A DNA stretch of 39,680 nucleotides, taken from the IMG/VR virus record IMGVR_UViG_3300042898_000380, positions 1 to 39,680 of that record; one strand, 5' to 3'. The notes beneath the pieces are model-generated. The model worked only from the letters and a program-made list of their open reading frames with translations. It was not told the origin of the DNA and made no database searches. This DNA is from a virus. The stretch's first letter is position 1. Every line of letters starts with the position of its first letter. Made by a program: the position numbers and the translations under genes. Of this stretch, positions 18,836-24,169 are shown one piece after another.

Positions 18836-18936
18836 GCGGTCTGCTTGGGTAAACCTGCGGGGGCTGGCTGTACCTACGGCGCCCCCTGAGATTTAACAAT
18901 CACAATCCTGACCAGCTCTGCGACCCGTGAAGCAGT

Positions 18937-18981
18937 TACTCATCAGTAACCTACTCATCGGTAACTTACTCGCCAGTAACT
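18937..18981. repeat. Three tandem 15-bp repeats with internal dyads (iteron-like)
   Basis: Consensus TACTCATCAGTAACY is repeated at 18937-18951, 18952-18966 and 18967-18981, with two to four differences among copies. The first forms GTTAC-TCATCA-GTAAC, a dyad with the preceding base. Tandem repeats of this type act as replication-initiator iterons or clustered operator sites. They lie about 155 bp upstream of the first plus-strand gene. Confidence 0.7.
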
Positions 18982-19066
18982 TAAACCCTGTAATCGAACA
19001 CCTGTTCGTGTGACGTGATTCACAAAAATAATTGAAGAAACTTGCCAAATGGACTTGCGCTATACC

Positions 19067-19080
19067 GTACAGTCCTGTAC
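19067..19080. promoter_or_regulatory. Palindromic operator candidate GTACAG-TC-CTGTAC
   Basis: A perfect 6-bp inverted repeat with a 2-base centre lies 57 bp upstream of the first plus-strand start codon (19137). A TTGCGC at 19055-19060 with TACTTT at 19078-19083 is a weak promoter match at 17-bp spacing and would overlap the palindrome. A repressor or activator, such as the phage WhiB partner or a host factor, could act here. The dyad is visible; the promoter is tentative. Confidence 0.5.
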
Positions 19081-19136
19081 TTTGCTCCTATCAGCTTGAA
19101 ATGGTCGAGCTGAACGAACCGCAAAGGGGCAATACA

Positions 19137-19343
19137 ATGACACGCAAAGACTATGAAATCATCGCAAGTGTACTCAGCAACTCCGACGAAGTAATCGACC
19201 AAGACGCGATTGACGCACTTGCTGAAATGTTCGCCGATAAGTTGGAGCGATACAATCCGAACTTCAAGCGCGACATCTTTATCATCAAGGCAACCAACAC
19301 AACACAACGACGCCAAGAGTTCTTGGAGCTCTTGAATAAATAG
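19137..19343 (+). CDS. Conserved small actinophage protein (MTRKDYxxIA type), 68 aa
   Basis: A longer frame opens at TTG 19032, but ATG 19137 has AAAGGGG upstream and the N-terminus MTRKDYEIIASVLSNSDE matches small proteins common in actinobacterial phages, so I start there. The product is helical, ending FKRDIFIIKATNTTQRRQEF. Function unknown. The G of its stop codon is also the first base of hammerhead ribozyme 1, so transcription proceeds directly from gene into ribozyme. Confidence 0.85.
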   Translation: MTRKDYEIIASVLSNSDEVIDQDAIDALAEMFADKLERYNPNFKRDIFIIKATNTTQRRQEFLELLNK

Positions 19344-19392
19344 TCCGAAACGCCTTCGGGCGTCTGACCGTCACGCGGTCACTGATGAGGAC
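19343..19392 (+). ncRNA. Type II hammerhead ribozyme 1
   Basis: The order is stem II strand GTCC (19343-19346), core GAAA (19347-19350), stem III CGCC-TTCG-GGCG (19351-19362) with a stable UUCG loop, cleavage triplet GTC ending at 19364, stem I TGACCG-TCACG-CGGTCA (19365-19381), core CTGATGA (19382-19388) and stem II strand GGAC (19389-19392). All strictly required core nucleotides (CUGAUGA and GAAA) are present and every stem is perfectly paired. Stem II is the open helix, which defines type II. Predicted self-cleavage is 3' of C19364, upstream of the gene at 19416. Confidence 0.95.
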
Positions 19393-19415
19393 AACTACTA
19401 CCGAAAGGCAAGAAA

Positions 19416-19742
19416 ATGACAGTATACGTTGCAGATGGACACGGCAACTGGTTCGAGGTCGTAGAAGGCGAGACTGACCGCCTTTACATCGTAGACACTG
19501 ACGACCTGAACGACGAGCAGAAGGCAGAACTGAAGGACGCAATCGAGAACGACGGAGCAGAGGACACAATCAAGGAATTAGGTCGCTCAGTTGATTTTCT
19601 TAATCAGTACAATGAAGGCGCACAAGGCGCCGTGCAATGGTTGGAAGAGGTCTACGGGGACGGGATTCACGAAACCGACGCGTACAAGGAATACGTCGGC
19701 GATTGTGAGTGCCACACTGACGAAGATGAGGATGAGGAATAA
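19416..19742 (+). CDS. Acidic hypothetical protein, 108 aa, in a ribozyme-bracketed transcript
   Basis: Starts at ATG 19416 after ACCGAAAGGCAAGAAA, the SD-like pattern seen at many genes of this operon. The product begins MTVYVADGHGNWFEVVEGET and has a very acidic end (HTDEDEDEE), with a CECH motif just before it. Acidic proteins of this size can act as DNA mimics or inhibitors of host DNA-binding proteins, but no family is recognised, so that is only a possibility. It lies between hammerhead ribozymes 1 and 2. Confidence 0.78.
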   Translation: MTVYVADGHGNWFEVVEGETDRLYIVDTDDLNDEQKAELKDAIENDGAEDTIKELGRSVDFLNQYNEGAQGAVQWLEEVYGDGIHETDAYKEYVGDCECHTDEDEDEE

Positions 19743-19894
19743 TGATTACTTACAAGGGCTTCACAATCCAAGAGCGCGTTACCTTTGACGGTGTGAAGGT
19801 GTACGACGCTCTGAGGAGTAAGAACCACGCCATAGCTAGCCTCCAATCGTTAGCTGAAATCGTGGCTAGAATTGACGCAGAAGCTAGCGAATAA
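19742..19894 (+). CDS. Hypothetical protein, 50 aa, in a ribozyme-bracketed transcript
   Basis: ATG 19742 shares a base with the preceding stop (TAATG), indicating translational coupling. The product MITYKGFTIQERVTFDGVKV, followed by a helix (ASLQSLAEIVARIDAEASE), is short with a beta-then-helix pattern. Its stop codon is adjacent to hammerhead ribozyme 2. Function unknown. Confidence 0.75.
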   Translation: MITYKGFTIQERVTFDGVKVYDALRSKNHAIASLQSLAEIVARIDAEASE

Positions 19895-19944
19895 GACCGA
19901 AACGCCGAGAGGCGTCCAGTCGTAAGGCGACTGCTGATGAGGTC
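19895..19944 (+). ncRNA. Type II hammerhead ribozyme 2
   Basis: The elements are GACC (19895-19898), GAAA (19899-19902), stem III CGCC-GAGA-GGCG (19903-19914) with a GNRA loop, cleavage triplet GTC ending at 19916, stem I CAGTCG-TAAGG-CGACTG (19917-19933), CTGATGA (19934-19940) and GGTC (19941-19944). Compared with ribozyme 1, stem II (GACC/GGTC versus GTCC/GGAC) and stem I differ by compensatory changes that keep pairing, which is strong evidence of selection on structure. It begins directly after the stop codon of the 50-residue gene. Confidence 0.95.
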
Positions 19945-19983
19945 AAATTTTGATCGATTTTGCTATGAGAGAGAGGGCGAAAG

Positions 19984-20127
19984 ATGAGTTACACAATCGA
20001 GGCAACGGGGCTAGACGGCTGGATGTCGTTTCGCTATCAGTACAAGGTGGACGCGTCCGACTTCTTCGGTTACGCTGAAACGAGAGAAGAAGCCGAAGCG
20101 ATAATCGAGAAGGCGAGCAAGAAGTGA
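19984..20127 (+). CDS. Hypothetical protein, 47 aa
   Basis: ATG 19984 follows AGAGAGGGCGAAAG. The product starts MSYTIEATGLDGWMSFRYQY and ends in an acidic-basic helix (AETREEAEAIIEKASKK). It resembles the preceding 50-residue protein in strand-then-helix layout. It ends with GTGA coupling to the next gene. Confidence 0.72.
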   Translation: MSYTIEATGLDGWMSFRYQYKVDASDFFGYAETREEAEAIIEKASKK

Positions 20128-22766: not shown

Positions 22767-23146
22767 AGTCTTATTGCATCCTCTAGTAGTAGGTAGCCAA
22801 CTAACTTTGGTACTTTAGCACGGTTCTCAAACTCAGTACTAGTTGGCATTAGGTGAGTAACCCACTCTGGTTCTGGTATCTCAGTTAGATCAAAAGAATA
22901 GATACCTTGTGGCGTAGAGTTGATGTAGAAAGGGAGCAGGTTGCGTGCTATTGCTTGTTCAATGAGAGCGCGATACTTTACCTGCTCAATAAGCAAGTCA
23001 ATGTAATGAGTGTGACGGCACTTGAGTTCTATAAAGTGACCAGCCTTCTCACTGATGCAGTCAAAAGAGTCATACGTACCTTCACTTCTAACTAAGTCTG
23101 GATACATCTCAGACTTTAAGTAAGTAAATAACTCTTGCTCGTTCAT
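22763..23146 (-). CDS. Putative small PD-(D/E)XK-like nuclease, 127 aa
   Basis: The sequence YDSFDCISEKAGHFIELKCR has D...ExK spacing like a PD-(D/E)XK nuclease core, with helices around it (YIDLLIEQVKYRALIEQAIA) that resemble helper segments. This is a weak, visual assignment. It is coupled to the sigma-like gene by a 4-base overlap (ATGA). Confidence 0.6.
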   Translation of the reverse strand: MNEQELFTYLKSEMYPDLVRSEGTYDSFDCISEKAGHFIELKCRHTHYIDLLIEQVKYRALIEQAIARNLLPFYINSTPQGIYSFDLTEIPEPEWVTHLMPTSTEFENRAKVPKLVGYLLLEDAIRL

Positions 23147-23775
23147 CTAAAGGGCGAGTTCCCGCCAAGCTGATCTATGAGGTGGCGCAAAGCAGTGGTG
23201 CATCTACGATCAGCAGTAGAGATAGCACACTCTAGCACTTGTGCTATCTGCGCGAGCTTAAAGTTCTCGTGGTAACGCATACGCAAAATGTTTTGATCTT
23301 CTATCTCTAATTTAAGATAACACTTCTTTATGTCGAGCAGGGTAGCAAGTAAGTTGCCGCCTTCTGCGGGAGATGATGAGCCACGTGGTTGCCCATCTTT
23401 AAGCATCTCTTGTGCTTGCTCTAAAACTGTACCGTCAATGACTGATGCAATTACAAAGGGTAGAAGTTGAGCAATAGTAGCGCTCTCGTAATAGGCTTCA
23501 TCTGCTACCTGATAGCCAGACTTAATAGCCTTCTCTTTGCGTGCGTATCGCTCTGCTACACGCCTCATCTGCCACGCTATACGCTGCTCATTGTGCTTAC
23601 GTTGAGCAGTATCAGGCTCAGCTAACTGGTCGTTGATGTAATCAACACGAGTAGTAGCCCAGTGGAAACACTCTTGCTTTATATCTTCTAGTTCAACCCA
23701 GTTATGAAACCGACGATGAATAGTACGAGCAACACTAGGTACTAGATCAAAGAGAATTGGGTTGAGTTCACTCAT
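23143..23775 (-). CDS. RNA polymerase sigma-factor-like protein
   Basis: The N-terminal helices contain NWVELEDIKQECFHWATTRV, similar to sigma region 2, and the end has NFKLAQIAQVLECAISTADR, then RRCTTALRHL, a region-4 HTH. I start at ATG 23775 because ATGAGTGA gives the 8-base overlap typical here; ATG 23790 is possible. Phage sigma-like factors redirect host polymerase to late or middle genes. Together with the WhiB protein this suggests a transcriptional switch. Confidence 0.78.
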   Translation of the reverse strand: MSELNPILFDLVPSVARTIHRRFHNWVELEDIKQECFHWATTRVDYINDQLAEPDTAQRKHNEQRIAWQMRRVAERYARKEKAIKSGYQVADEAYYESATIAQLLPFVIASVIDGTVLEQAQEMLKDGQPRGSSSPAEGGNLLATLLDIKKCYLKLEIEDQNILRMRYHENFKLAQIAQVLECAISTADRRCTTALRHLIDQLGGNSPFR

Positions 23776-24169
23776 TGGGCCACGTTTCATCTAGCACCAT
23801 CATTGCAATAGCAGAGTAATTCAGTAGGTCAATGAAACTATCACGCAAAGATTCGTTACTAGGATTAACGCCGCTATCTAACAAGTTGTTGATGCGTGCT
23901 ACCTTGTCCCACATACGTACACGCAGACCATTAAGTGGTCCACCTGGACTAAGGCTAATGTTCTTAGGACCGTAGTCGTGGTGTTTCTTAATGAGTAAGT
24001 TGCCTGCTGAGTCCAAGATACGCCAGACATCTGTAATAAACTTATCATCTATCTTGTTGGTGTTGGTCTGATTAACACTTGTTCGCTCTGGTAATTGGCT
24101 TCTAAGATCTGAAAGCCCATATGCTGCAAAGTCTGTAACATTACGATCCACTCGTCTTTCGTCATTCAC
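23768..24169 (-). CDS. Nmad1/DUF1599-like MazG-fold protein
   Basis: The core LLIKKHHDYGPKN, then RMWDKVARINNLL, then LRDSFIDLLNYSAIAMM matches the pattern of DUF1599 (nucleotide modification associated domain 1), an all-alpha MazG-like fold. The longer frame starts at TTG 24184, but GTG 24169 has a perfect GGAGG eight bases upstream, so 133 residues. It is likely a nucleotide pyrophosphatase or a binder of modified nucleotides. No DNA modification enzyme is recognised in this genome. Confidence 0.85.
   Translation of the reverse strand: MNDERRVDRNVTDFAAYGLSDLRSQLPERTSVNQTNTNKIDDKFITDVWRILDSAGNLLIKKHHDYGPKNISLSPGGPLNGLRVRMWDKVARINNLLDSGVNPSNESLRDSFIDLLNYSAIAMMVLDETWPNE

Follow-up and report, generated by a model that had tools for sequence, protein, structure and literature searches.

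Introduction

Hammerhead ribozymes of prophages occur in clusters that flank genes, and Perreault et al. (2011; PMC3088659) proposed mRNA processing as their role. These authors report the expected cleavage in vitro for the clusters of three bacteria, one of which, from Agrobacterium, was cleaved in E. coli as well. However, 4 of the 18 consensus hammerheads tested by these authors were inactive. The same paper places the 5' end of a transcript of haloviruses HF1 and HF2 at most 3 nt from the cleavage site of their HHphage ribozyme. After hammerhead cleavage the upstream product carries a 2',3'-cyclic phosphate and the downstream product a 5'-OH, and a review regards the role of prokaryotic hammerheads as an open question (PMC6155905). 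Both the occurrence of hammerhead clusters between small phage genes, including clusters of type II, and their proposed role in processing have been described before (PMC3088659, PMC6155905).

Here we analyze a pair of type II hammerheads in a virus record of 39,680 bases (the window). Its two ribozymes lie on the same strand and flank a short block of phage genes, and the pair is a further case of clustered phage hammerheads, in a less described subclass.

Results

Two elements of 50 nt are present on the + strand of the window, ribozyme 1 at 19343-19392 and ribozyme 2 at 19895-19944, exactly where and in the shared orientation that the first-pass annotation had placed them. Each was recognized as a type II hammerhead by sequence, fold, motif finder and a held-out covariance model. 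The order of parts is the same in both: 5' strand of stem II, GAA, stem III, C17, stem I hairpin, CUGAUGA (CTGATGA in the DNA) and 3' strand of stem II. Ribozyme 1 consists of stem II (GTCC/GGAC; 19343-19346/19389-19392), GAA (19347-19349), stem III (ACGCC/GGCGT around TTCG; 19350-19354/19359-19363), C17 (19364), stem I (TGACCG/CGGTCA; 19365-19370/19376-19381) with loop UCACG, and CUGAUGA (19382-19388), with cleavage predicted at 19364/19365. The corresponding parts of ribozyme 2 are stem II (GACC/GGTC; 19895-19898/19941-19944), GAA (19899-19901), stem III (ACGCC/GGCGT around GAGA; 19902-19906/19911-19915), C17 (19916), stem I (CAGTCG/CGACTG; 19917-19922/19928-19933) with loop UAAGG, and CUGAUGA (19934-19940), with predicted cleavage at 19916/19917.

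By sequence and motif finder, both elements have the type II core, CUGANGA ... GAAA with an A15.1-U16.1 pair and H at position 17; stem III starts with A15.1, and U16.1 precedes C17. Folds and covariation agree on the topology, with loops closing stems I and III and stem II open. The minimum-energy fold of each element, with or without flanks, was the three-way hammerhead. Sequence and folds thus bear out the cores, cleavage sites and paired stems described in the first-pass annotation. The two sequences also agree with its statement of a constant stem III and compensated variation in the other two stems: stem III is identical, stem II has a single compensated pair (T-A vs A-T), and several compensated pair differences are found in stem I. 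No pseudoknot between loop I and the 3' tail was seen by eye in either window element. The pair are real type II hammerheads with all the features of active ones, and judged from their sequence these RNAs should cleave themselves. If both cut, the predicted sites would delimit a + strand RNA of 552 nt (19365-19916) carrying the genes that start at 19416 and 19742; here the earlier arithmetic and gene positions were correct. The expected product would be a two-gene mRNA with the stem I hairpin of ribozyme 1 at its 5' end and the stem III hairpin of ribozyme 2 at its 3' end.

One covariance model (R1) had been trained with the window's own elements included. We therefore used a second, held-out model (R2), for which 16 elements were taken from contigs that are not relatives of the window. 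R2 returned exactly two matches in the window, with 66.6 and 68.3 bits (E about 1e-21), and no third element; it also detected the elements of related contigs. The bare CTGATGA core, with 7 occurrences in the window vs 5.7 expected, is unremarkable alone, and it is the whole motif that is unusual. In contrast, Rfam Hammerhead_II (RF02276) gave no match in the window at its gathering score. When E values up to 10 were admitted, element 1 reached 25.7 bits (gathering score 37) and element 2 was not listed. On other contigs, RF02276 scored elements of the pseudoknotted class at 39-82 bits, but missed the two non-pseudoknotted ones of contig L078. RF02276 misses the window elements because it models the pseudoknotted form, while the window elements are non-pseudoknotted. 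Thus, the covariance scan suggested earlier as a check stayed below cut-off with the Rfam model and found both elements with the held-out model; the gap lies in the Rfam model.

Further loci were collected with a pattern fixing the core and part of stem III, and two further pattern searches added loci. Among the matches listed for the loci of the first pattern, the motif finder gave 143 matches, 4 of them repeat readings of the window's two elements, compared to 0 in reversed controls. The full viral set comprised 197 distinct elements among the matches listed; the patterns fix part of the motif, and the fractions given here hold for this sample. Covariation was analyzed in 39 distinct 50-mers found with a plain pattern that left the free stem positions free not to pair. 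All five free stem I pairs were formed in 38 of the 39 and all four stem II pairs in 39 of 39, with 26 different stem I arms. When arms were dealt to other elements, pairing was 47% for stem I and 81% for stem II. Pair counts on finder-chosen sequences agreed with this result, the plain-pattern set being the cleaner test because the finder sequences are selected for pairing. This covariation supports the selection on RNA structure proposed in the first-pass annotation.

Stem I hairpin length separated the elements into two classes. Among the matches listed, 31 of 136 elements had a hairpin of 16-18 nt (short class) and most others one of 21-25 nt (long class), with 20 nt in two. Stem II is nearly always 4 bp in the short class and mostly 2-3 bp in the long class. 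Complementarity of at least 4 nt between loop and tail, which is the published pseudoknot, was detected in 75 of 103 long-class elements vs 28 in shuffles (among the matches listed). For the short class the numbers were 5 of 31 vs 2.6, not clearly above chance (again among the matches listed). The short class prefers a UNANG pentaloop, a count partly biased by the loop letters in two of the search patterns. With a 4-bp stem II, a 6-bp stem I and a UNANG loop, both window elements are short-class. According to Perreault et al., the pseudoknot is absent from many hammerheads (PMC3088659), and we therefore consider the short class a subclass and not a new ribozyme. RF02276 and the window elements have in common the circular permutation (stem II open), the core, the GUC cleavage triplet and the ACGCC/GGCGU start of stem III. 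They differ in stem II, which is 2 bp long in RF02276 and 4 bp in the window, and RF02276 also models a 3' tail fitting the pseudoknotted form. Because the Rfam model misses the non-pseudoknotted class, such type II hammerheads are probably under-annotated in phages. The idea that the short class is missing from bacterial genomes was dropped: an exact pattern had 0 matches there, but a broader scan found 4 short elements among the 41 listed (P = 0.08). Two ribozyme variants were noted in relatives, one with CUGACGA, a change at the variable core position (L180:3612-3661), and one with an additional base adjoining CUGAUGA (L103:2954-3004).

The two ribozymes are closely fitted to the surrounding + strand genes. 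Upstream of ribozyme 1, a gene of 68 aa (19137-19343) ends in a TAG stop (19341-19343), the G of which is the first base of the ribozyme. The leader that follows ribozyme 1 (19393-19415, +; ACTACTACCGAAAGG...) contains the ribosome-binding region of the first inter-ribozyme gene (19416-19742, +; 108 aa, net charge -28, no family match). The second gene, of 50 aa (19742-19894, +), has a TAA stop (19892-19894) that directly abuts ribozyme 2, and a leader of 39 nt (19945-19983, +) then precedes a gene of 47 aa (19984-20127, +).

This arrangement is widespread in the collected loci, with ORFs called by simple rules. Among the matches listed, an ORF of 40 codons or more had its stop at -3 to +1 nt from the ribozyme start for 141 of the 197 viral elements, compared to 2.0% at control positions 100-700 nt away, and the G of a TAG stop coincided with the ribozyme start in 41 of 197. 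A separate collection of elements from bacterial genomes gave 22 of 41 vs 1.3% in the control (among the matches listed). The longest upstream ORF extended further into the ribozyme in only 7 of 184 cases listed. Median distances, measured to predicted cuts among the matches listed, were 24 nt from stop to cut and 55 nt from cut to next start. Phage genomes are compact, which may account for part of the stop-codon abutment.

The bracketing of genes by two elements, singled out in the first-pass annotation, is not special to the window. At least two elements were present at 35 of 139 loci, and neighbouring elements lay on the same strand in all 58 pairs, a median of 471 nt apart (all among the matches listed). 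In 52 of these 58 segments, likewise among the matches listed, an entire ORF was present that terminated at the second element. In the 35 contigs with at least two ribozymes among the matches listed, neighbouring ribozymes had interchangeable stem II strands about twice as often as expected, and an excess persisted when they were matched for overall similarity. Stem II incompatibility was dropped as a general argument against circular RNAs, since compatibility in other contigs exceeds expectation.

Genes adjoining ribozymes had median charges of -1 and -2, not unusual overall, and the proposal that the ribozymes mark acidic DNA-mimic genes was accordingly dropped as a general claim. A Pfam scan of 114 downstream proteins gave few matches and no dominant family. 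For the 108-aa protein (19416-19742), a search for relatives found only the near-identical contig, and single-sequence structure prediction was of low confidence (pLDDT 57). The acidity of this protein is reminiscent of DNA-mimic antirestriction proteins.

No promoter for the early operon was recognized. Upstream of the + strand early genes, a unit of about 16 nt (such as ACTCATCAGTAACCT) is present in three imperfect direct copies (18934-18984), and an operator-like palindrome, GTACAGTCCTGTAC (19068-19081), is located just 5' of the first of these genes. The protein encoded at 23143-23790 (-) has a weak match to sigma-factor region 4 (PHROG, Pfam) and is possibly a phage transcription switch. 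A terminator reading of the ribozyme sites was rejected, as the + strand there is without a terminator-like site.

A nucleotide search of cultured phages gave no match to the window. TerL and a 656-aa protein had distant matches only, to ct2KA10 and the Streptomyces phage WRightOn group. Because these distant relatives are Streptomyces phages, the host is perhaps an actinobacterium. Contigs that had been fetched solely by their ribozyme proved to be relatives of the window phage, with a DNA identity of roughly 65-99% across TerL and other genes. Their ribozymes are in similar small-gene clusters with different gene content, and ArdA (PF07275) is encoded by the gene following a ribozyme in L078 and L100. 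Two more distant relatives, L124 and L125, contained no element when scanned.

The ribozymes are conserved together with their leaders. Ribozyme 1 and the first part of its leader match contig L182, this part of the leader being identical; ribozyme 2 with its 39-nt leader is about 92% conserved in L078; and L100 and L144 match over ribozyme and leader at 96-98%. In all three pairs the match stops near the gene edges, and in the two pairs involving the window the proteins on either side had no BLASTP match. In addition, a ribozyme separates genes F26 and F15 in L180, whereas the two genes are directly adjacent in L103.

L123 (IMGVR_UViG_3300044627_003482) is 99.3% identical to the window over about 8 kb, but lacks 48 nt (window 19301-19348), so that the end of the upstream gene, the 5' strand of stem II and the GA of ribozyme 1 are gone. 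If the deletion is natural, and not an error of assembly, L123 has lost one of the two ribozymes, and ribozyme 1 may then be dispensable.

Discussion

We consider it likely that the two ribozymes act as stop-cut-start punctuation between genes of the polycistronic early mRNA of a tailed phage. Matches to the held-out model, covariation, recurrence in relatives, abutment of stop codons, intercistronic position and leader conservation all point to such a role, in which cleavage, its timing during infection and its effect on the mRNA are what these features lead us to expect. Each element would fold and cut as the + strand early operon is transcribed, at a site 21-22 nt past the preceding stop codon; the next start codons lie 51 and 67 nt beyond the two cuts. 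A distance of 21-22 nt beyond a stop codon suffices for normal translation termination. The stem III hairpin, carrying a 2',3'-cyclic phosphate, would form the 3' end of the upstream message, and the message after it would start at a blunt stem I hairpin bearing a 5'-OH. Enzymes that require a free 3'-OH or a 5'-monophosphate should have difficulty attacking either end. The products would be gene-sized mRNAs (here 552 nt with two genes), with structured and chemically blocked ends, whose decay and translation would be independent of each other. By further extension, ribozyme and leader might also serve as a joint for the swapping of small genes. A counterpoint is that the pseudoknot, which speeds many type II elements, is absent from the window elements.

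The mosaic flanks raise the alternative that the ribozyme-plus-leader island is a sequence joint at gene borders, allowing phages to recombine small early genes, with RNA cutting incidental. Conservation of ribozyme and leader between unrelated flanking genes in three pairs would fit, as would the F26-F15 junction with and without an element. Moreover, the local match ended near both gene edges in 342 of 410 similar pairs of ribozyme loci among the matches listed, though similarity at the ribozyme itself is inflated in loci fetched by it. However, a pure DNA joint has no need of compensated variation in stems I and II, and all neighbouring elements are on the sense strand of the genes. We therefore regard this explanation as unlikely; gene exchange may be an added consequence of the ribozymes. 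Cutting could instead be regulated, with folding controlled by a ligand or protein, or by the ribosome terminating at the abutting stop, such that cleavage reports upstream translation. The position of the stop in 141 of 197 elements (among the matches listed) is compatible with such control, a terminating ribosome would cover the 5' strand of stem II and the GAA, and the possibility is raised by Perreault et al. (PMC3088659). Nevertheless, compact gene packing can also produce the abutment and the 50-nt elements of the window have no ligand-binding extension, making regulation distinctly improbable.

Two ribozymes spaced 552 nt apart on the same strand might also excise an RNA that circularizes or propagates, in line with the analogy to retrozymes and satellite RNAs drawn in the first-pass annotation. 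Compatible stem II strands between neighbours in other contigs (40 of 58 vs about 20 expected, among the matches listed) would agree with this possibility, and circles may form in other phages. For the window, the analogy found no support: stems I and II are not the same in the two elements, the closing chimera (GACC of element 2 with GGAC of element 1) has an A-A mismatch at the third pair, and the segment consists of two coding, non-repeated ORFs. Furthermore, many loci have just one element (104 of 139 among the matches listed), and Perreault et al. sought spliced and circular products and found none (PMC3088659). Excision of a unit RNA that then circularizes or propagates is thus very unlikely here. 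That the elements are inactive, chance or decayed hammerhead look-alikes is scarcely credible: although the near-identical contig L123 lost part of element 1, the held-out scores of 66-68 bits, the strong covariation and the recurrence in related phages argue against it.

Returning to punctuation of the early mRNA, a broader version can be put forward tentatively, and we think it rather doubtful in its full scope. Phage type II hammerheads would in general be stop-cut-start cassettes: sitting on the stop codon, the ribozyme would link ribosome release to cutting and bring along its own leader and ribosome-binding region, and the small early genes beside it, including antirestriction genes, would be exchanged, so that the unit would act as both punctuation and joint. 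The geometry of stop, cut and start (~24 nt and ~55 nt) turns the processing idea into specific predictions for mRNA ends, decay and translation. Conservation of ribozyme and leader at swapped genes suggests that phages keep new early genes, including antirestriction genes, in working expression units.

In the open-access papers that the search covered, we found no statement of stop-codon abutment or of ribozyme-plus-leader conservation between unrelated genes. These two observations, together with ArdA following a ribozyme in two relatives, go beyond the accessible part of PMC3088659. The likeness to the clusters described there is close. In both cases several hammerheads surround one phage gene or a short run of them, and ardA adjoins ribozymes there as it does in L078 and L100. 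The proposal made there, that long phage transcripts are cut into gene-length mRNAs, is the same as ours. In contrast to those prophage clusters, the window is a contig of a tailed phage, distantly related to Streptomyces phages, in which the scanned genes included no integrase, and both its elements are non-pseudoknotted.

The HHphage of haloviruses HF1 and HF2 likewise belongs to a lytic virus and is located 13 nt upstream of the start codon of an early gene (PMC3088659). It differs in being a core-variant element of an archaeal virus, positioned ahead of the first gene of its transcript. Retrozymes and satellite RNAs resemble the window in that two hammerheads several hundred nt apart can free a unit RNA (PMC4918200, PMC7761336). 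Their ribozymes, however, are of type I or III, with the same ribozyme in direct unit repeats, and the unit-length RNA, mostly non-coding, is re-ligated into a circle. In the window, two different type II ribozymes, not arranged as a direct repeat, flank a coding segment of non-repeated ORFs.
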